Source of the DNA: Cellulomonas sp. JH27-2
GTDB taxonomy: Bacteria > Actinomycetota > Actinomycetes > Actinomycetales > Cellulomonadaceae
Assembly (NCBI RefSeq): GCF_014837175.1
Contig: NZ_JACYFR010000005.1
Coordinates: forward strand, 1-64,000
DNA length: 64,000 nucleotides
Direction of reading: 5' to 3'
A program made the position numbers and the translations under genes. Positions 12,035-38,041 of this stretch are shown in pieces; positions within the stretch are counted from its first letter, which is position 1; each line of letters starts with the position of its first letter. The notes under the pieces are model-generated. The model had not been told where the DNA came from. It did not search any database and was given only the letters and a program-made list of their open reading frames with translations.

Positions 12035-12982
12035 TCAGATCTTGCGCAGCCGCACCCGCTCGACCGAGTGGTCGCGTCCCTTCGTGAGCACCAGGTCGGC
12101 GCGGCTGCGCGTCGGCAGGATGTTCTGCTCGAGGTTCGGGGCGTTGATGGTGTCCCAGATGCGCTCGGCGCGTTCAACGGCCTCGTCGTCGGACAGTGCG
12201 GCGTACCGGTGGAAGTACGAGTTCGGGTCCGCGAACGCGGTGCTCCGCAGCGACAGGAACCGGTCGACGTACCACTGCCGCACGTCCGGCGTGCGGGCGT
12301 CGACGTAGATGGAGAAGTCGAAGAAGTCGCTGACCGCGAGGTTGGACGCGCCCTCCGTGCTGGGTCGTGCGGGCTGCAGCACGTTGAGACCCTCGACGAC
12401 GAGGACGTCGGGCCGCTCCACGACGATCTCGCGCCCGGGCACGATGTCGTACGTCAGGTGGTCGTAGACGGGGGCCCGGACCTCGGGCCGTCCGGCCTTC
12501 ACCTTGGAGATGAACCGCAGCAGCGCGCGCCGGTCGTACGACTCCGGGAAGCCCTTGCGCTCCATCAGACCGCGGCGCTCGAGCTCGGCGTTCGGGTAGA
12601 GGAACCCGTCGGTGGTGACGAGCTGGACGCGCGGCGTGGCGGGCCAGCGGGCCAGCAGCTCGCGCAGCAGGCGGGCGGTCGTGGACTTGCCGACGGCCAC
12701 CGAACCGGCGACGCCGATGACGAAGGGCGTCGCGACGATGTCCTCGCGCAGGAAGGTGCTCGACGCCTGGTGCAGGCCGCGCGTCGCCTCGACGTAGAGG
12801 TCGAGCAGGCGGGAGATGGGACGGTAGATCGCGTCGACCTCTGCCAGGTCGATGGGGTCGCCCAGACCGGCGAGCCGCTCGACGTCGGCGTCGGTGAGCG
12901 GCAGGGGCGTGGAGGCCGACAGGCGTGTCCACGCCTCCCGGTCGAGGTCCACGTACGGCGTGGACGGGGTCAGCGCGGGCAC
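12035..12982 (-). CDS. coaA: type I pantothenate kinase
   Basis: CoaA phosphorylates pantothenate, the first and regulated step of coenzyme A synthesis. The 315-residue protein carries the P-loop [12 protein letters not shown] (90-101), then the TTDGFLYPN substrate loop and [13 protein letters not shown], all typical of prokaryotic type I kinases. CACAAT lies 6 nt before the GTG and no Shine-Dalgarno sequence is seen, suggesting a leaderless mRNA. It diverges from glmS with 113 bp between the starts. Confidence 0.95.
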
Positions 12983-13095
12983 GGTCCGATTGTGCCGGAC
13001 GCGGGCCGTCGGGACCCGCCCGGGCTGCGGGCGCGCGGTGTGACGTCCGCCGCGCGGCTCCGGGAGCGTCGTCGGCCCCGGATAGACTCGCCGCC

Positions 13096-14952
13096 ATGTG
13101 TGGAATCGTGGGTTACGTCGGGAGCCAGCAGGCCAGCGGACGTCCGCTGGACGTCGTGCTCGAAGGGCTGCGGCGCCTGGAGTACCGCGGCTACGACTCG
13201 GCCGGTGTCGCCCTCGTCGGTCCGGGCACGGGCCTCGAGACGGCGAAGAAGGCCGGCAAGCTGGCCAACCTCGTGGAGGAGCTCGACGCGCGCCCGCTCG
13301 ACGACTCCACGGCCGCCATCGGTCACACGCGGTGGGCGACGCACGGCGGGCCCACGGACACCAACGCGCACCCGCACGTCGCCGGGCGTCTCGCCCTGAT
13401 CCACAACGGGATCGTCGAGAACTTCGCGTCGCTCAAGGCCGAGCTGGTCGCCGACGGCGTCGAGTTCGTCTCCGAGACGGACACGGAGGTCGCCGCTCAC
13501 CTCGTCTCGCGCGCCTATGACGCGTCGGGCGACCTGACCGCCGCCATGACGAGCGTCGTGCGCACGCTGCACGGCACGTTCACGTTGCTGGCCGTGCACG
13601 CCGACGACCCGAGCACCGTGGTCGGCGCGCGGCACGACTCGCCGCTCGTCGTCGGCCTCGGCGAGGGTGAGAACTTCCTCGGCTCGGACGTGTCGGCCTT
13701 CATCGCGCACACGCGTGAGGCGCTCGAGCTGGGCCAGGACCAGGTCGTGACCATCACGCCCGACGACGTGCGCGTGACGGACTTCGACGGGCAGCCCGCC
13801 CAGGCCCGCCGCTACACGGTGGACTGGGACGCCGCCGCCGCGGAGAAGGGCGGCTTCCGCTCCTTCATGGACAAGGAGATCCACGACCAGCCGCAGGCCG
13901 TCGCGGACACCCTGCTGGGCCGCACGGACGCGCGCGGTCGCCTGGTGCTCGACGAGGTCCGCATCGACGAGTCCGTGCTGCGGGCCGTCGACAAGATCGT
14001 CGTCATCGCCTGCGGGACCGCCGCGTATGCCGGCCACGTCGCCAAGTACGCGATCGAGCACTGGTGCCGCATCCCGGTGGAGGTCGAGCTCGCGCACGAG
14101 TTCCGCTACCGCGACCCCGTGGTGAACGAGCGCACGCTCGTCGTCGCCGTCTCGCAGTCCGGCGAGACCATGGACACGCTCATGGCCGTGCGCCACGCCC
14201 GCGAGCAGGGCGCGAAGGTCCTCGCCATCGTCAACACCCACGGCTCGACGATCCCGCGCGAGTCCGACGCGGTGCTCTACACGCACGCCGGCCCGGAGAT
14301 CGCGGTCGCCTCCACCAAGGCGTTCCTCTCTCAGATCACTGCCGCCTACCTGCTGGGGCTCTACCTGGCGCAGCTGCGCGGCAACAAGTACGCCGACGAG
14401 GTCACGGAGATCCTGCGCGAGCTGCGGGCGATGCCGGAGAAGATCCAGCAGGTCCTGGACCGTGCGGGCCGGGTGCGCGAGATCGCGCGCTGGATGGTCG
14501 ACACGCAGTCGGTGCTGTTCCTCGGCCGGCACGTCGGGTTCCCCGTCGCGCTGGAGGGCGCGCTCAAGCTCAAGGAGCTCGCCTACATCCACGCCGAGGG
14601 ATTCGCGGCGGGCGAGCTCAAGCACGGTCCCATCGCGCTCATCGAGCCCGGTCAGCCGGTGTTCGTCGTCGTGCCGTCCCCGCGTGGCCGGGACTCGCTG
14701 CACTCCAAGGTCGTCTCCAACATCCAGGAGATCCGCGCCCGCGGCGCGCGCACGCTGGTGATCGCCGAGGACGGCGACGAGGCCGTGCGGCCGTACGCCG
14801 ACGAGGTGTTCTACGTGCCGCAGTCGCCCACGCTGCTCGCGCCGCTGCTGGCCGTGGTGCCGCTGCAGGTCTTCGCGTGCGAGCTCGCGACGGCCAAGGG
14901 TCTGGACGTCGACCAGCCGCGCAACCTCGCCAAGTCCGTCACGGTCGAGTAG
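13096..14952 (+). CDS. glmS: glutamine-fructose-6-phosphate aminotransferase
   Basis: GlmS makes glucosamine-6-phosphate from fructose-6-phosphate and glutamine. The 618-residue protein starts MCGIVGYVG with Cys2 as the N-terminal nucleophile once Met is removed. It has the glutaminase block YRGYDSAG and two SIS sugar-isomerase domains (SQSGETMDT and the C-terminal half), ending in [15 protein letters not shown] lies 7 nt before the ATG, suggesting a leaderless transcript. The next gene overlaps its stop by one base, so glmS, the MazG-like gene and acpS form one translational unit. Confidence 0.97.
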
Positions 14953-19976: not shown

Positions 19977-20596
19977 GCGGCACGTCCGCCTCGCTCGACG
20001 AGGCGCTGGGGCGTGCCCGCGCGCTCGTGGCCGACGGGAGCCGCCGGTTGCTCGGCATCGCGGGTGCGCCCGGCGCGGGCAAGTCGACGCTCGCGGCGCA
20101 CGTCGCTGACGAGCTCGGCGGACGGGCCGTCGTCGTCCCGATGGACGGCTTCCACCTGGCGCAGAGCGAGCTGGAGCGGATCGGGCGCGCCGACCGCAAG
20201 GGTGCGCCCGACACGTTCGACGCGGCGGGCTTCGTGGCGCTGCTGCGGCGGCTGCGGGTCGCGGACGCCACCGTCTACGCGCCCGAGTACCGGCGCGACC
20301 TGCGCAACCCCGTCGCCGGCGCGATCGCCGTGCCGCCGGACGTGCCGCTCGTCGTCGTCGAAGGGAACTATCTGCTGCTGTCGTCGCACGGGTTCGGGCC
20401 GGTCGCGGACCTGCTCGACGAGGCATGGTTCGTCGCGCCCGACGACGACCTGCGGCTGGACCGCCTCGTCGCACGGCACGTCGCGTTCGGCAAGACGGCG
20501 CAGGCCGCGCACGACTGGTCGCACGGACCCGACGAGGCGAACGCGCGCCTCGTCGCGGCGACCGCGGCGCGTGCGGACCTGCGGGTGGTCCCGTGA
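19973..20596 (+). CDS. P-loop nucleoside/sugar kinase family protein
   Basis: This 207-residue kinase of the uridine kinase/phosphoribulokinase superfamily has P-loop GAPGAGKST (31-39), the substrate segment MDGFHLAQSELERIG, RKGAPDTFDAAGF, and VVVEGNYLLL as Walker B-like strand. This combination occurs in proteins labelled nucleoside/nucleotide kinase or fructokinase FrcK-like. The substrate is not deducible. The GTG start overlaps the nnr stop (GTGA), and alr follows after 46 nt, so it belongs to the nnr-alr-tsaE operon. Confidence 0.8.
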   Translation: MSGTSASLDEALGRARALVADGSRRLLGIAGAPGAGKSTLAAHVADELGGRAVVVPMDGFHLAQSELERIGRADRKGAPDTFDAAGFVALLRRLRVADATVYAPEYRRDLRNPVAGAIAVPPDVPLVVVEGNYLLLSSHGFGPVADLLDEAWFVAPDDDLRLDRLVARHVAFGKTAQAAHDWSHGPDEANARLVAATAARADLRVVP

Positions 20597-20642
20597 CGTG
20601 CTGCTGCGCCGGGAGCGGAGCGGGGATGGGAGACTGGAGCCC

Positions 20643-21806
20643 GTGAGCTGGTTCCCCGCGCGTGCCGTGATCGACGACGCCGCCATCGCCGCCAACGTGC
20701 GCAGCCTCGCCGCCCACGCCCCGACCGCGCAGGTCATGGCGGTCGTCAAGGCCGACGCCTACGGGCACGGCCTGGTGCCGAGCGCCCGCGCTGCCCTGGC
20801 CGGTGGGGCCGCGTGGCTCGGCGCGGCCCAGGTGGGCGAGGCGATCGAGCTGCGCCGCGCGGGCGTCGTCGGGCCCCGCGTCCTGACCTGGCTCTACGCA
20901 CCCGGCGCCCCTCTCGCCGACGCGCTCGCGGTCGACCTGGACCTGTCCGTCGCCGCGCCGTGGGCGCTGGACGAGGTCGCGACCGCCGCGCGCGTCGTCG
21001 GGCGTCCGGCCCGCATCCACCTCAAGGTCGATACGGGTCTGGGGCGCAATGGTCTGACCCCCGACCAGCTCGCGGGCCTGCTGCCGGACGCGCTGCGCGC
21101 GCAGGCCGAGGGGGCGGTCGAGATCGTCGGCGTGTGGTCGCACCTGGCGTTCGCCGACGAGCCCGAGCACCCGACCGTGCGCGCGCAGGAGCAGGTGTTC
21201 GCGGACGCCGTCGCGCTCGTCGAGAGTGCCGGTGCCCACCTCGAGGTCCGGCACCTGGCCAACTCCGCCGCCACGCTGACCGCGCCCCGCGCGCATTACG
21301 ACCTCGTGCGGCCGGGCATCGCGGTCTACGGGCTCTCGCCCGTCCCGCAGCTCGGCTCGTCGGCCGACTTCGGGCTCGTGCCGGCCATGACGGTCGAGGC
21401 CGAGCTGGCCACCGTCAAGCCCGTCCCCGCGGGCCACGGCGTGTCCTACGCGCACCAGTACGTCACGCCGCGCGACACCGTCCTCGGGATCGTGCCGATG
21501 GGGTACGCCGACGGGGTGCCGCGGCACGCGTCGGGCACGCAGGACCACGTCGGCGGCCCCGTCCAGGTGGGTGGCCGCCGGCTGGGCGTGGCCGGCCGCG
21601 TCTGCATGGACCAGGTGGTGGTGGACCTGGGCCCGGACGCGACCGAGGTCGCGGGGGACCGCGTCGTGCTGTTCGGGAACGGCGCGGACGGCGGCCCGAC
21701 GGCCCAGGACTGGGCACAGGCCGCGGGCACCATCTCGTACGAGATCGTGACCCGGCTGGGCGCGCGCGTGCCGCGCTCGCACATCAACTCGGAGGGACAG
21801 CAGTGA
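20643..21806 (+). CDS. alr: alanine racemase
   Basis: Alr makes D-alanine for peptidoglycan. This 387-residue PLP enzyme has the Schiff-base Lys36 in AVVKADAYGHG, the second catalytic base Tyr269 in GVSYA, and RVCMDQVVVDLG near the C-terminus. The fold is TIM barrel plus beta domain. The GTG start follows TGGAG. Its stop overlaps the GTG of tsaE. The position next to the t6A genes is common in actinobacteria. Confidence 0.96.
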   Translation: MSWFPARAVIDDAAIAANVRSLAAHAPTAQVMAVVKADAYGHGLVPSARAALAGGAAWLGAAQVGEAIELRRAGVVGPRVLTWLYAPGAPLADALAVDLDLSVAAPWALDEVATAARVVGRPARIHLKVDTGLGRNGLTPDQLAGLLPDALRAQAEGAVEIVGVWSHLAFADEPEHPTVRAQEQVFADAVALVESAGAHLEVRHLANSAATLTAPRAHYDLVRPGIAVYGLSPVPQLGSSADFGLVPAMTVEAELATVKPVPAGHGVSYAHQYVTPRDTVLGIVPMGYADGVPRHASGTQDHVGGPVQVGGRRLGVAGRVCMDQVVVDLGPDATEVAGDRVVLFGNGADGGPTAQDWAQAAGTISYEIVTRLGARVPRSHINSEGQQ

Positions 21807-32029: not shown

Positions 32030-34292
<2,263 letters not shown>

Positions 34293-34364: not shown

Positions 34365-35936
34365 TCAGTCGCGGAACGTCTCGATCTGCGCGCCCAGCTC
34401 GACGAGGCGCTCCTGGAGCTGCTCGTAGCCGCGGGCGATGATGTCGACGTCGCGCAGCACCGCGGTGCCCTTGCTGGCCAGCATCGCGAGCAGGATGACG
34501 ACCGCGGGGCGCAGGGCGGGCGGGCACGAGATCTCCGCGCCCGACCAGTGCGCCGGGCCGGAGACCTGCAGGCGGTGCGCGTCGAGCAGCCGGACGTCGG
34601 CACCCAGCCGGGTCAGGTCCGTCAGGTGGATCGCCCGGCCGTCGTAGACCCAGTCGTGGATGAGCGTGGTGCCCTGCGCGCACGCCGCGATGGCGGCGAA
34701 GAACGGCAGGTTGTCGATGTTGAGGCCCGGGAACGGCATCGCGTGGATCTTCTCGATCGCATGCAGCTCGCTGGGGTGCACCGTGATGTCCACGAGGCGC
34801 GTGCGGCCGTTGCGGGCGGCGTACTCGGCCGACAGCGTGACACGCTGACCCATCTCCGCCAGCGTGGCCAGCTCGATCTCCATGAACTCGATCGGCACCC
34901 GGCCCACGGTGATCTCGGAGTGCGTCACGATCCCCGCCGTGAGCAGGCTCATGGCCTCCACGGGGTCCTCGGAGACGGCGTACTCGACGTCCGCGTCGAT
35001 GACCGAGCGGCCGTGCACGCGCAGCGTCGTCGTCCCGATGCCGTCGATCCGCACGCCCAGCAGCTCCAGGTAGAAGCACAGGTCCTGGACCATGTAGTTG
35101 GGGCTCGCGTTGCGGATGGTCGTGACGCCGTCGCGGCGGGCGGCCGCCATGATGACGTTCTCCGTCACGGTGTCGCCGCGCTCGGTGAGGACGACGGACA
35201 GGTCGTGTGTGCTGGGGGCGTCCACGACCGCCTGGTACTCGCCCGCGGTGGCGGTGATCGACAGGCCGAACGGGCGCAGGCCCACCATGTGCGGCTCGAC
35301 GGTGCGCGTGCCGAGGTCGCAACCGCCCGCGTAGGGGAGCCGGAACTCGTCGCGGCGGCCCAGCAGCGGGCCCAGGAACATGATGATCGACCGGGTGCGC
35401 CGCGCGGCGTCGGCGTCGATGCTGTCGAGGTCCAGGCCGTCCGGCACCTGGATCTCCAGGTCGCGGCCGTCGGGTGACCACACGGCCCGCACGCCGATCG
35501 AGCGCAGCACGGTGACGATGCGGTCGACCTCGACGATCCGCGCGACGCCGCGCAGCCGCGTGGTGCCGCGGTTGAGCAGCGACGCGCACAGCAGCGCGAC
35601 CGCGCCGTTCTTGGACGTGTTGACGTCGATCCGGCCGCTGAGCGGGTGGCCGCCGTGCACGCGCAGGTGCGTGCGCTGCGGGCCGCCGAGCGTGACGATG
35701 GGGGAGTCCAGCGCTCCGCCGATGCGGGTGAGCATCTCGAGGCTGACGTTCTGCGCGCCCTGCTCGATGCGGTGCACAGCCGACTGGCTGGTGCCGAGGC
35801 GCTCGGCGAGCTGGGCCTGCGTGAGGCCGCGGTGCTGGCGGGCCGAGCGGACCAGCGACCCGACCGCCAGCAGCGGGTCGGGGGCGATCGGCAGTGCGGC
35901 CGTGGTGGTGGGGACGAAGGACTCGGTCGTCGTCAT
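34365..35936 (-). CDS. XRE-type HTH fused to a MurA-like enolpyruvyl transferase
   Basis: The product is 523 residues. Residues 26-80 are a Cro/XRE helix-turn-helix (LTQAQLAERLGTSQSAVHRI at 38-57). Residues about 88-520 are a complete EPSP/MurA double-barrel domain. Key MurA residues are kept: Lys109-Asn110 (SKNGA), loop Cys206 in YAGGCDLGTR with Arg211, FPGLNIDNL, and the late LRPAVV Arg. It could thus be an active UDP-GlcNAc enolpyruvyl transferase that also binds DNA, or a regulator sensing UDP-GlcNAc/PEP. Two TGAGATA palindromes lie upstream. The start ATG has TACGCT 7 nt before it (leaderless). Confidence 0.88.
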   Translation of the reverse strand: MTTTESFVPTTTAALPIAPDPLLAVGSLVRSARQHRGLTQAQLAERLGTSQSAVHRIEQGAQNVSLEMLTRIGGALDSPIVTLGGPQRTHLRVHGGHPLSGRIDVNTSKNGAVALLCASLLNRGTTRLRGVARIVEVDRIVTVLRSIGVRAVWSPDGRDLEIQVPDGLDLDSIDADAARRTRSIIMFLGPLLGRRDEFRLPYAGGCDLGTRTVEPHMVGLRPFGLSITATAGEYQAVVDAPSTHDLSVVLTERGDTVTENVIMAAARRDGVTTIRNASPNYMVQDLCFYLELLGVRIDGIGTTTLRVHGRSVIDADVEYAVSEDPVEAMSLLTAGIVTHSEITVGRVPIEFMEIELATLAEMGQRVTLSAEYAARNGRTRLVDITVHPSELHAIEKIHAMPFPGLNIDNLPFFAAIAACAQGTTLIHDWVYDGRAIHLTDLTRLGADVRLLDAHRLQVSGPAHWSGAEISCPPALRPAVVILLAMLASKGTAVLRDVDIIARGYEQLQERLVELGAQIETFRD

Positions 35937-35947
35937 GCGGCCGAGCG

Positions 35948-35965
35948 TATCTCACGGATGAGATA
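35948..35965. promoter_or_regulatory. operator 1 upstream of the HTH-MurA gene
   Basis: TATCTCACGGATGAGATA is a perfect 7-bp inverted repeat with a 4-nt centre. On the minus strand it lies between a -35-like TTGCCA and the -10-like TACGCT, so binding would block the promoter. It is 11 bp upstream of the ATG at 35936. The probable binder is the gene's own HTH. Confidence 0.7.
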
Positions 35966-36011: not shown

Positions 36012-36029
36012 GATGTCAGGTGTGAGATA
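36012..36029. promoter_or_regulatory. operator 2 upstream of the HTH-MurA gene
   Basis: GATGTCA-GGTG-TGAGATA repeats the architecture of the site at 35948-35965: an identical right arm, 5 of 7 matching left-arm bases and the same 4-nt centre. The two sites are 64 bp apart centre to centre, close to six helical turns, which would suit cooperative binding or a loop. Confidence 0.6.
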
Positions 36030-36043
36030 TCAGCAGGTCCGCG

Positions 36044-36763
36044 TCACCACAGCGTGCCGACGGGTTCACGCACGGGCCAGTGGCCGGCGGCGCCGGGGCC
36101 GTCGAGGCCACGCTCGGTGCGCCACGCGTTGAACGCCTCGGCCCACGCCCGGTGCGCCGTGACCTGGTAGGCGTGCAGCTCGTCGAGGTCCAGGTCCGCC
36201 AGGTGCGGGAAGCGCCCGACGATGCGCTCGAGCACGTCCAGGGTCGCGACGACGTCCACGTCCGCGCTGTGCAGCGAGCCGGACTCCGTGACCTCGTAGT
36301 ACCCGCACAGGTCGACGAGCTTGCGCTTGCCCTGCCGGTAGCGGTCCGCGGCGCGGTCGAGGACCAGCGGGTCGATGACGGGCCGCGGGTCGCAGCACAG
36401 CCGGTCGGGGACCGTGGGCAGGCGGTGGCGGCGCAGCTCGGCGTCCAGCAGGCACAGGTCGAATGCGGCGTTGTAGGCGACGACCGGGACGCCGTCGCGC
36501 ATCGCCTGGGCGATCTCCTCCGCGATCTCGTCGAGCGCCCCCGCCGGCGCCACGCCGTGCTCCTGCGCGTGCTCGGTGGAGATGCCGTGGATCTGTGCCG
36601 CGGCCTCCGGGATCGGCACACCCGGGTCGATGAGCCAGGTGCGGATCGTCGTGCCGCCGGCGTCCCGGCGCACGAGCGCCGCGGTGACGATGCGGTCGGA
36701 GTCGACGTCGACGCCCGTCGTCTCGGTGTCGAAACCGAGCAGGGGTCCCGCGCTCCAGGTCAT
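36044..36763 (-). CDS. DEDDh 3'-5' exonuclease
   Basis: This 239-residue exonuclease of the DnaQ/RNase T class has Exo I FDTETTG (11-17, Asp12, Glu14), Exo II VAYNAAFD and Exo III in HSADVDVVATLDV (His then Asp). IHGIS follows Exo I as in DnaQ. There is no polymerase partner or helicase domain, so it is a stand-alone exonuclease of repair or RNA turnover. The ATG at 36763 follows a purine-rich GAGGACG. It lies upstream of and in line with the HTH-MurA gene, separated by the 107-bp operator region. Confidence 0.88.
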   Translation of the reverse strand: MTWSAGPLLGFDTETTGVDVDSDRIVTAALVRRDAGGTTIRTWLIDPGVPIPEAAAQIHGISTEHAQEHGVAPAGALDEIAEEIAQAMRDGVPVVAYNAAFDLCLLDAELRRHRLPTVPDRLCCDPRPVIDPLVLDRAADRYRQGKRKLVDLCGYYEVTESGSLHSADVDVVATLDVLERIVGRFPHLADLDLDELHAYQVTAHRAWAEAFNAWRTERGLDGPGAAGHWPVREPVGTLW

Positions 36764-36916: not shown

Positions 36917-38041
36917 GTGAGCAACGAGATCGAGATCGGACGCGGCAAGCGAGGCCGCCGCGCGTACTCCTTCGACGACATCGCCGTGGTGCCCTCGCGC
37001 CGCACGCGCGACCCCGAGGAGGTCTCGGTCGGCTGGCAGATCGACGCCTACCACTTCGACCTGCCGGTCGTCGCGGCCCCGATGGACTCGGTCATGAGCC
37101 CCGACACCGCGGTGGCGCTGGGCCGCCTCGGCGGGCTCGGTGTCCTGGATCTCGAGGGACTGTGGACGCGCTACGACGACCCGACGCCGCTGCTCGCCGA
37201 GATCGCGGAGCTGGACGCCTCGCGCGCCACCGCCCGCATGCAGGAGATCTACGAGGCGCCGATCCGCCCCGAGCTCATCACCGAGCGGCTGCGCCAGGTC
37301 CGCGACGCGGGCGTCACCGTCGCCGGGGCTCTGTCGCCACAGCGCACGCAGGAGCACTGGCGCACGGTCGTCGACGCCGGCGTCGACCTGTTCGTCATCC
37401 GCGGCACGACGGTCTCCGCCGAGCACGTCTCCGGCCACGCCGAGCCGCTCAACCTCAAGCGCTTCATCTACGAGCTCGACGTGCCCGTCATCGTCGGCGG
37501 TGCGTCCACGTACACCGCGGCCCTGCACCTCATGCGCACCGGCGCCGCGGGCGTCCTGGTCGGCTTCGGCGGCGGCGCCGCGCACACGACGCGCACGTCG
37601 CTCGGCATCCACGCGCCCATGGCGACCGCGGTCGCGGACGTCGCCGCGGCGCGTCGCGACTACCTCGACGAGTCTGGCGGCCGCTACGTGCACGTCATCG
37701 CCGACGGAGGAGTGGGCCGCTCGGGCGACCTGGTCAAGGCCGTCGCGTGCGGGGCCGACGCCGTCATGCTGGGAGCCGCGCTCGCTCGTGCCACCGACGC
37801 ACCCGGCCGCGGGCACCACTGGGGGCCCGAGGCGCACCACAGCAAGCTGCCCCGCGGCGAGCGCGTGGAGGTCGGCACGGCCGGCAGCCTCGAGCAGATC
37901 CTGTTCGGCCCCGGTCACACCGCGGACGGCACGCTCAACCTCATCGGTGCACTGCGTCGCGCGATGGCGACCACCGGGTACTCGGATCTCAAGGAGTTCC
38001 AGCGCGTCGAGGTCGTCGTCTCGCCCTACCAGCCGCACTGA
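36917..38041 (+). CDS. guaB3: GuaB3-family IMP dehydrogenase-related protein
   Basis: This 374-residue TIM-barrel protein has no CBS domains. It starts EIGRGKRGRRAYSFDDIAVV and contains VVAAPMDSVMSP, then FVIRGTTVSAEH where catalytic IMPDH has the Cys-Thr-Thr loop. The active Cys is therefore missing and XMP formation as in GuaB is unlikely by the standard route. The family is conserved in actinobacteria and cyanobacteria; its role was unclear for long. TAGCCT lies 6 nt before the GTG start. Confidence 0.93.
   Translation: MSNEIEIGRGKRGRRAYSFDDIAVVPSRRTRDPEEVSVGWQIDAYHFDLPVVAAPMDSVMSPDTAVALGRLGGLGVLDLEGLWTRYDDPTPLLAEIAELDASRATARMQEIYEAPIRPELITERLRQVRDAGVTVAGALSPQRTQEHWRTVVDAGVDLFVIRGTTVSAEHVSGHAEPLNLKRFIYELDVPVIVGGASTYTAALHLMRTGAAGVLVGFGGGAAHTTRTSLGIHAPMATAVADVAAARRDYLDESGGRYVHVIADGGVGRSGDLVKAVACGADAVMLGAALARATDAPGRGHHWGPEAHHSKLPRGERVEVGTAGSLEQILFGPGHTADGTLNLIGALRRAMATTGYSDLKEFQRVEVVVSPYQPH

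Follow-up and report, generated by a model that had tools for sequence, protein, structure and literature searches.

The product of one gene of Cellulomonas sp. JH27-2 joins an XRE-type helix-turn-helix (HTH) to a MurA-fold enolpyruvyl transferase and, as judged from sequence, is very likely a MurA that controls its own supply, that is, an autorepressing and divergent but working enzyme. MurA is essential, catalyzes the first committed step of cell-wall synthesis and is the target of fosfomycin. The gene lies in a 64,000-nucleotide stretch of DNA that was analyzed as a whole and is referred to as the window (Table 1). The enzyme-repressor fusion is real and conserved, and represents a variant within both the MurA enzymes and the trigger enzymes. 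It is well supported as an enzyme-repressor because a dedicated predicted operator lies at its own start and because the enzyme would be needed where it is the sole MurA-like gene. This operator is an addition to an earlier, sequence-only reading of the window, which had described an HTH before a full and apparently intact enolpyruvyl-transferase domain.

Table 1. Features of the HTH-MurA gene and its upstream region, in window positions
Feature	Position	Strand	Basis or remark
HTH-MurA coding sequence	34365..35936	-	523 aa, ATG start, ORF exact; Pfam/NCBIfam matches
XRE-type helix-turn-helix, residues 26-80	35697..35861	-	HTH_3 match and predicted helices
MurA-fold enolpyruvyl transferase domain, residues 88-523	34368..35675	-	Pfam, PDB matches, structure comparison
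Loop Cys206 codon (= E. coli MurA C115)	35319..35321	-	invariant in 80/80 proteins
-10-like hexamer TACGCT	35944..35949	-	shares two bases with the O1 end; 7 bp before the ATG, leaderless layout
Operator O1 (predicted), perfect palindrome TATCTCA-N4-TGAGATA	35948..35965	.	extends into the -10-like hexamer of the gene's promoter
Operator O2 (putative), degenerate second copy, 2/14 arm bases differ	36012..36029	.	64 bp upstream of O1

Architecture and distribution of the fusion

The two-domain layout proposed in the sequence-only reading was borne out by Pfam for both domains, by the helices of an AlphaFold model and by the MurA fold. Pfam HTH_3 matched residues 29-80 with 47.5 bits (curated cut-off 23) and EPSP_synthase residues 94-511 with 148.9 bits (cut-off 22.8), and NF006015 (BzdR-type) was matched by the HTH alone, over residues 22-85. 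The model, built from a 43-row alignment (mean pLDDT 85.8), has four HTH helices, at residues 21-35, 40-47, 51-58 and 66-76. The structure search covered residues 87-523, and the HTH assignment rests on Pfam and the predicted helices. Residues 88-523 superimposed on MurA structures with Z-scores of up to 46.6 and an rmsd of about 2 Å, the top match being 1eyn (Z 46.6, rmsd 2.0 Å, 414 residues aligned). Of the 35 matches of a PDB sequence search 32 were MurA, the rest being NikO and two to the HTH. The top NCBIfam matches were likewise MurA models; the window protein falls below the cut-off of the murA equivalog TIGR01072 (285.5 against 392.7 bits), as do all five relatives scored (292.8-309.8 bits), two of them from species in which the fusion is the sole MurA, and it satisfies the broader subfamily model NF006873 (301.7 bits against a cut-off of 297).

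Since 86 of the 296 class genomes sampled, a number confirmed by recount, keep the fusion at 60-70% identity, the fusion is not a chance product. After the fusions, the best matches in class genomes are MurAs without an HTH, sharing about 35% identity. A search of a 296-genome phylum sample with the enzyme half matched 12 genomes at E <= 1e-60; all belong to the same class and all hold the fusion, and no HTH-free member of the fusion clade was found among them. All 20 fusions in a 42-protein tree cluster as a single group (100/98), separate from both types of HTH-free MurA. The named loci considered below are the best 80 of 572 relatives, and include the genera Cellulomonas, Oerskovia, Cellulosimicrobium, Curtobacterium, Geodermatophilus, Streptomyces, Aeromicrobium, Mumia and Nocardioides; the nearest named relatives are Cellulomonas and its kin, with 81-84% identity in the 43-row alignment. 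Residue counts over the 80 proteins of this set show T49-S-Q-S-A53, R56, E58, G60, Q62 and N63 of the HTH segment to be family-invariant. The idea of a mobile copy was given up, as a plasmid collection gave two records at 60-80% identity, on replicons of 2.8 and 11.9 Mb, with the remaining 132 records all below 60%.

No conserved neighbor gene was seen beyond close relatives in the 32 loci compared. The earlier proposal of a link to the UDP-GlcNAc supply genes glmS and glmM was accordingly dropped, although glmS was correctly placed in the window: genes for glmS and alanine racemase occupy 12925-14952 and 20013-21806, roughly 13-21 kb from the fusion gene. IMP dehydrogenase-like and IMP-dehydrogenase-related proteins (identified by eye) flank the fusion gene at 32784-34292 and 36917-38041; the nearer of the two, guaB-like, recurs in 7/32 loci, all from close relatives, and an aconitase-like neighbor is found in 4/32.

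A predicted operator at the gene's own start

Immediately 5' of the ATG, O1 reads TATCTCA-CGGA-TGAGATA. Across the best 80 of 572 relatives, a 310-bp stretch at the gene start contains this palindrome in every case, with 0, 1, 2 or 3 mismatches in 8, 50, 11 and 11 loci, respectively, whereas among the 2023 other 310-bp segments of the same loci 24 hold a copy with 2 mismatches and none a copy with 0, 1 or 3. Allowing up to 3 mismatches over whole loci yielded 30 outside sites, of which one sits within the L042 gene and 29 are a different fixed 18-mer, TATCTCGATGTCGAGATA, in Streptomycetaceae loci.

The palindrome is joined to a promoter-like layout. Its last two right-arm bases open a TANNNT hexamer (T in 80/80, A in 78/80 and T in 77/80 named loci), and the hexamer is separated from the start codon by 6-8 bp in 73/80, an arrangement typical of leaderless actinobacterial transcripts. 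Alignment of the 80 named loci on the palindrome showed no conserved -35 element; a candidate in the window, TTGCCA, lies 16 bp upstream of the -10 (by eye). A protein sitting on the palindrome would thus extend into the -10, and a palindromic operator at the target promoter, a trait of XRE repressors, is present as a sequence prediction.

The same site is found at the gene in nearly every fusion-carrying genome, and is at background level elsewhere. At up to 1 mismatch it accompanies the gene in 68 of 80 genomes with the fusion, and there are just five non-self sites in these 80 genomes in total, as against five, spread over four genomes, in 80 control genomes of the class that lack the fusion; the reversed pattern gave one site in each set. 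Ten of the 12 genomes missed at this threshold hold a copy with 2-3 mismatches in the proper position, and six of six additional fusion-carrying genomes have one with no more than 1 mismatch, bringing the total to 84 of 86. With the palindrome at the gene's own start in 84/86 genomes and other sites no more frequent than background, a dedicated autorepressor, as opposed to a general regulator of wall genes, is the very probable role of the protein, and autorepression of its own gene by HTH-MurA can be regarded as highly probable.

The sequence-only reading had offered a trigger enzyme, or a repressor that reports UDP-GlcNAc and PEP levels. A bifunctional enzyme-repressor with an operator at its own start, serving in places as the sole MurA, is the part that has stood, whereas reporting to other genes has not: the 3.73-Mb genome of the window's strain holds no operator copy at up to 2 mismatches besides O1 and the adjoining O2. 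That the protein reports UDP-GlcNAc/PEP by repressing a broader cell-wall regulon, a reading favored by the architecture alone, is therefore very unlikely; the non-self sites are as frequent as in control genomes, in a scan for the full palindrome from which weaker or half-site targets could have escaped.

O2, at about six helical turns (64 bp) from O1, lies within the intergenic gap, provided that the exonuclease-like frame ending at 36044 is the upstream gene. For 18 of the 22 Micrococcales loci (one tie), the best second match to the palindrome is found at an upstream distance of 63, 64 or 74 bp, corresponding to six or seven helical turns; this second copy is weak, in that it beats all 200 random resamplings in 6 of the 22 loci only. 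No favored distance was apparent in loci outside Micrococcales.

The 18-mer TATCTCGATGTCGAGATA is invariant over its 29 copies in Streptomycetaceae loci. In L081 it is placed some 315 bp before the fusion gene, near a divergent aconitase-like gene (by eye), with an iron-box-like sequence alongside; other such sites are in L069, L072, L096 and L108. It resembles a binding site for a different regulator.

The enzyme half as a probable working MurA

The residues singled out in the sequence-only reading, K109-N110, C206, R211 and R502, are all there in the alignment, and K22, N23, R91, C115, R120, D231, D305, R331, R371 and R397 (E. coli numbering) are kept in 80/80 proteins, with the catalytic and PEP residues likewise intact in 11/11 additional fusions. 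The description of the enzyme as apparently intact holds for these positions, but not for S162, G164 and D369, which are replaced by G254, T256 and P473 (numbering of the window protein) in all 80 proteins aligned, and by the same G, T and P in the 11 additional fusions. The pyrophosphate-side loop is rewritten in 80/80, from S162-V-G-A-T to G-D-T-V-T. According to the available part of a mutational scan of E. coli MurA, these three positions are among the ten least tolerant, accepting only S or T at 162, G at 164, and D or E at 369, and S162 and G164 contact the UDP pyrophosphate (PMC9842644). C. jejuni MurA appears, from an alignment inspected by eye, to carry T at both 162 and 164. The replacement of S162, G164 and D369 is the main tension in the evidence.

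The genomic setting bears directly on this tension. The question raised in the earlier reading, whether the genome has another murA without an HTH, is answered by such a murA-like gene in the window's genome, in addition to AroA and the fusion. The term MurA paralogue is incomplete, as in 34 genomes (one a MAG) the fusion has AroA as its only companion and is the sole MurA-like gene. An EPSP_synthase Pfam scan of 51 of the 86 fusion-carrying genomes, chosen for spread, found exactly two enolpyruvyl-transferase genes in 26, nine of them single contigs, and the partner was AroA in 26/26; of 19 more of the 86, G156 and G081 likewise have two such genes and the other 17 have three or more matches. 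Eight of 33 named genomes also have two genes, with AroA as partner in 8/8, namely Rarobacter faecitabidus, Micrococcales bacterium KH10, Serinibacter arcticus, Mumia quercus, Nocardioides halotolerans, Aeromicrobium Root344, Aeromicrobium 9AM and one Cellulomonas MAG, in which incompleteness may be the cause. Because the only other enolpyruvyl transferase in these genomes is aroA, and because MurB is matched in 33/33 of those that are not MAGs (in one, G166, under the curated cut-off), the fusion should, on gene content, be the working MurA there. Since the sole-MurA species carry the same changes at S162, G164 and D369, these changes should suit MurA function, which suggests that joint replacement is possible at active-site positions that are all but immutable in E. 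coli MurA. In the genome of locus L045, Paraoerskovia sediminicola, which also carries the fusion, an HTH-free enolpyruvyl-transferase gene is apparently in two overlapping pieces (G304:C1:2515055-2516319), reflecting a frameshift or sequencing error.

These data weigh on two other views of the C-terminal domain. It might have lost catalysis and serve as a ligand sensor for the HTH, comparable to the shikimate-kinase-like domain of BzdR, as could be argued from the 80/80 replacement of positions that hardly vary in E. coli MurA (PMC9842644, available part) and from the score below the TIGR01072 cut-off. Such a pseudo-enzyme is unlikely in view of its being the sole MurA-like gene in 33 non-MAG genomes, each with a murB match, and of the invariance of the catalytic Cys, the Lys-Asn pair, Asp305 and the PEP arginines. 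Alternatively, the domain might transfer enolpyruvate to another acceptor, as a NikO-like enzyme outside peptidoglycan synthesis. This was favored at first, from the rewriting of the pyrophosphate-side loop in 80/80 proteins, and was abandoned once many genomes turned out to have no MurA-like gene besides the fusion. These genomes need UDP-GlcNAc-enolpyruvate for MurB, and their fusions share their residues with the rest; the nearest structures, moreover, are MurA (Z <=46.6), ahead of NikO (40.8) and EPSP synthases (<=36.4), making a different acceptor very unlikely.

A separation of the two halves has occurred in genus g6, which contributes both of the two genomes among the 86 that lack the operator. 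In a comparison of five g6 species, four have neither the operator nor the usual HTH recognition residues: T49-S-Q-S-A53...Q62-N63 has become M-T-G-T-D, M-T-E-T-D or M-T-E-Q-D...H-D, and three of these species have also lost R56. Intact HTH residues, together with an operator copy with 1 mismatch, are found in the fifth species (G600, 89% complete). The -10-like hexamer, as TACGAT, and the leaderless start are still there in the genus. The enzyme half has 67% identity to that of the window in the four operator-less species and 66% in the fifth, with all catalytic residues checked being kept, a pattern of regulatory decay beside a preserved enzyme that also speaks against a pseudo-enzyme. By Pfam scan each of the five species has one other enolpyruvyl-transferase gene, which is AroA in the one checked (G273). 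In G081, a 10-contig g6 genome, the fusion gene (L225 / L236, G081:C1:1261855-1263362) is frameshifted near residue 402; in what is apparently the only MurA-like gene, this is probably an assembly error.

The joint loss is probably a single event but, read at the sequence level, ties this HTH to this operator and shows the enzyme half outliving its regulation; the genus offers a natural set in which enzyme and regulator functions have separated. An ordinary constitutive MurA with a vestigial HTH would fit these four species, which have lost both recognition residues and operator, but as an account of the family it is extremely unlikely, given recognition residues that are invariant in the 80 proteins of the named set and an operator present in 84/86 genomes.

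Proposed circuit and relation to known systems

In the proposed mechanism, the C-terminal domain would act as a divergent yet functional UDP-GlcNAc enolpyruvyl transferase, while the N-terminal XRE domain, presumably as a dimer, would bind TATCTCA-N4-TGAGATA in the leaderless promoter of its gene, at the -10. Binding at O1 would block transcription of the gene, repression being assumed rather than activation. Operator binding may be weakened by what the MurA domain binds, the likeliest ligand being UDP-GlcNAc, alone or together with PEP, and an effect of ligands on DNA binding is somewhat favored. In the preferred version, accumulating UDP-GlcNAc would draw the substrate-bound enzyme off the operator, so that more enzyme is made. 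The fusion would then be a homeostat for lineages that have no other MurA, and a self-inducing reserve enzyme for those, like that of the window, that have a second one. Autorepression set by protein concentration, with no ligand effect, is a simpler alternative that fits the data equally well.

A more specific form of the preferred, ligand-responsive version can be put forward tentatively, as possible but somewhat short of an even chance: a MurA that reads its own substrate load, in which apo or idle enzyme would sit on O1 (with a second dimer on O2 in Micrococcales), and enzyme closed on UDP-GlcNAc, including that alkylated by fosfomycin at Cys206, would be released. If so, a block of MurA would directly induce more MurA, and the committed step of peptidoglycan synthesis would be self-sensing in a large part of the Actinomycetes. 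Autorepression, if true, would by itself constitute a built-in control of an antibiotic target. A whole clade that appears to carry transcriptional control on the MurA chain, with many species having no other MurA, makes the setting of precursor supply testable.

The trigger enzymes PutA, BirA and NadR combine a metabolic enzyme and a transcription factor in one polypeptide, and HTH-MurA resembles them in having an enzyme and a predicted transcription factor on one chain. To our knowledge, no trigger enzyme is the committed enzyme of peptidoglycan synthesis. With the MurA/MurZ enzymes (E. coli MurA, C. jejuni 5ujs) the fusion shares the fold, the loop Cys, the Lys-Asn pair, the catalytic Asp and the PEP arginines, and 33 non-MAG genomes with a MurB match have no other gene of this kind. 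Unlike them, it has an N-terminal XRE domain, a rewritten pyrophosphate loop and a lost D369 position, and it forms a separate clade with a dedicated predicted operator.

A member of the family may already bear a name. SCO5998 of Streptomyces coelicolor, called MurA2, is separated from the aconitase gene SCO5999 by a region with a predicted DmdR1 site (PMC12161575) and has a SigB-dependent promoter (PMC8346170), as reported in the available parts of these papers. The published SigB promoter sequence could be aligned, with 1-8 mismatches over 36 positions, 222-372 bp upstream of the matched start in six of the 10 Streptomyces loci tested. Because this promoter sequence aligns upstream of the fusion in 6/10 Streptomyces loci, and because the divergent neighbor in L081 is aconitase-like, as is SCO5999, SCO5998 is very probably, by sequence and context, the S. 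coelicolor member of the HTH-MurA family. Given the distal SigB promoter upstream, O1 is not the sole input in Streptomyces. The accounts of MurA2 in the available parts of PMC12161575 and PMC8346170 include neither an HTH nor autoregulation, and in open-licence PMC papers, within the parts available, no account was found of an HTH-MurA fusion, its operator or its autoregulation.

The nearest known architecture is that of BzdR, as described in the available part of PMC3602430. BzdR and HTH-MurA both place an N-terminal DNA-binding (XRE) domain before a metabolic-enzyme fold, which is a shikimate-kinase-like domain in BzdR and a MurA fold in HTH-MurA. The enzyme domain of BzdR is inactive and the protein controls benzoate genes (PMC3602430), whereas HTH-MurA, as predicted from its sequence and genomic setting, would still have to work as an enzyme and would have its own gene as the target.
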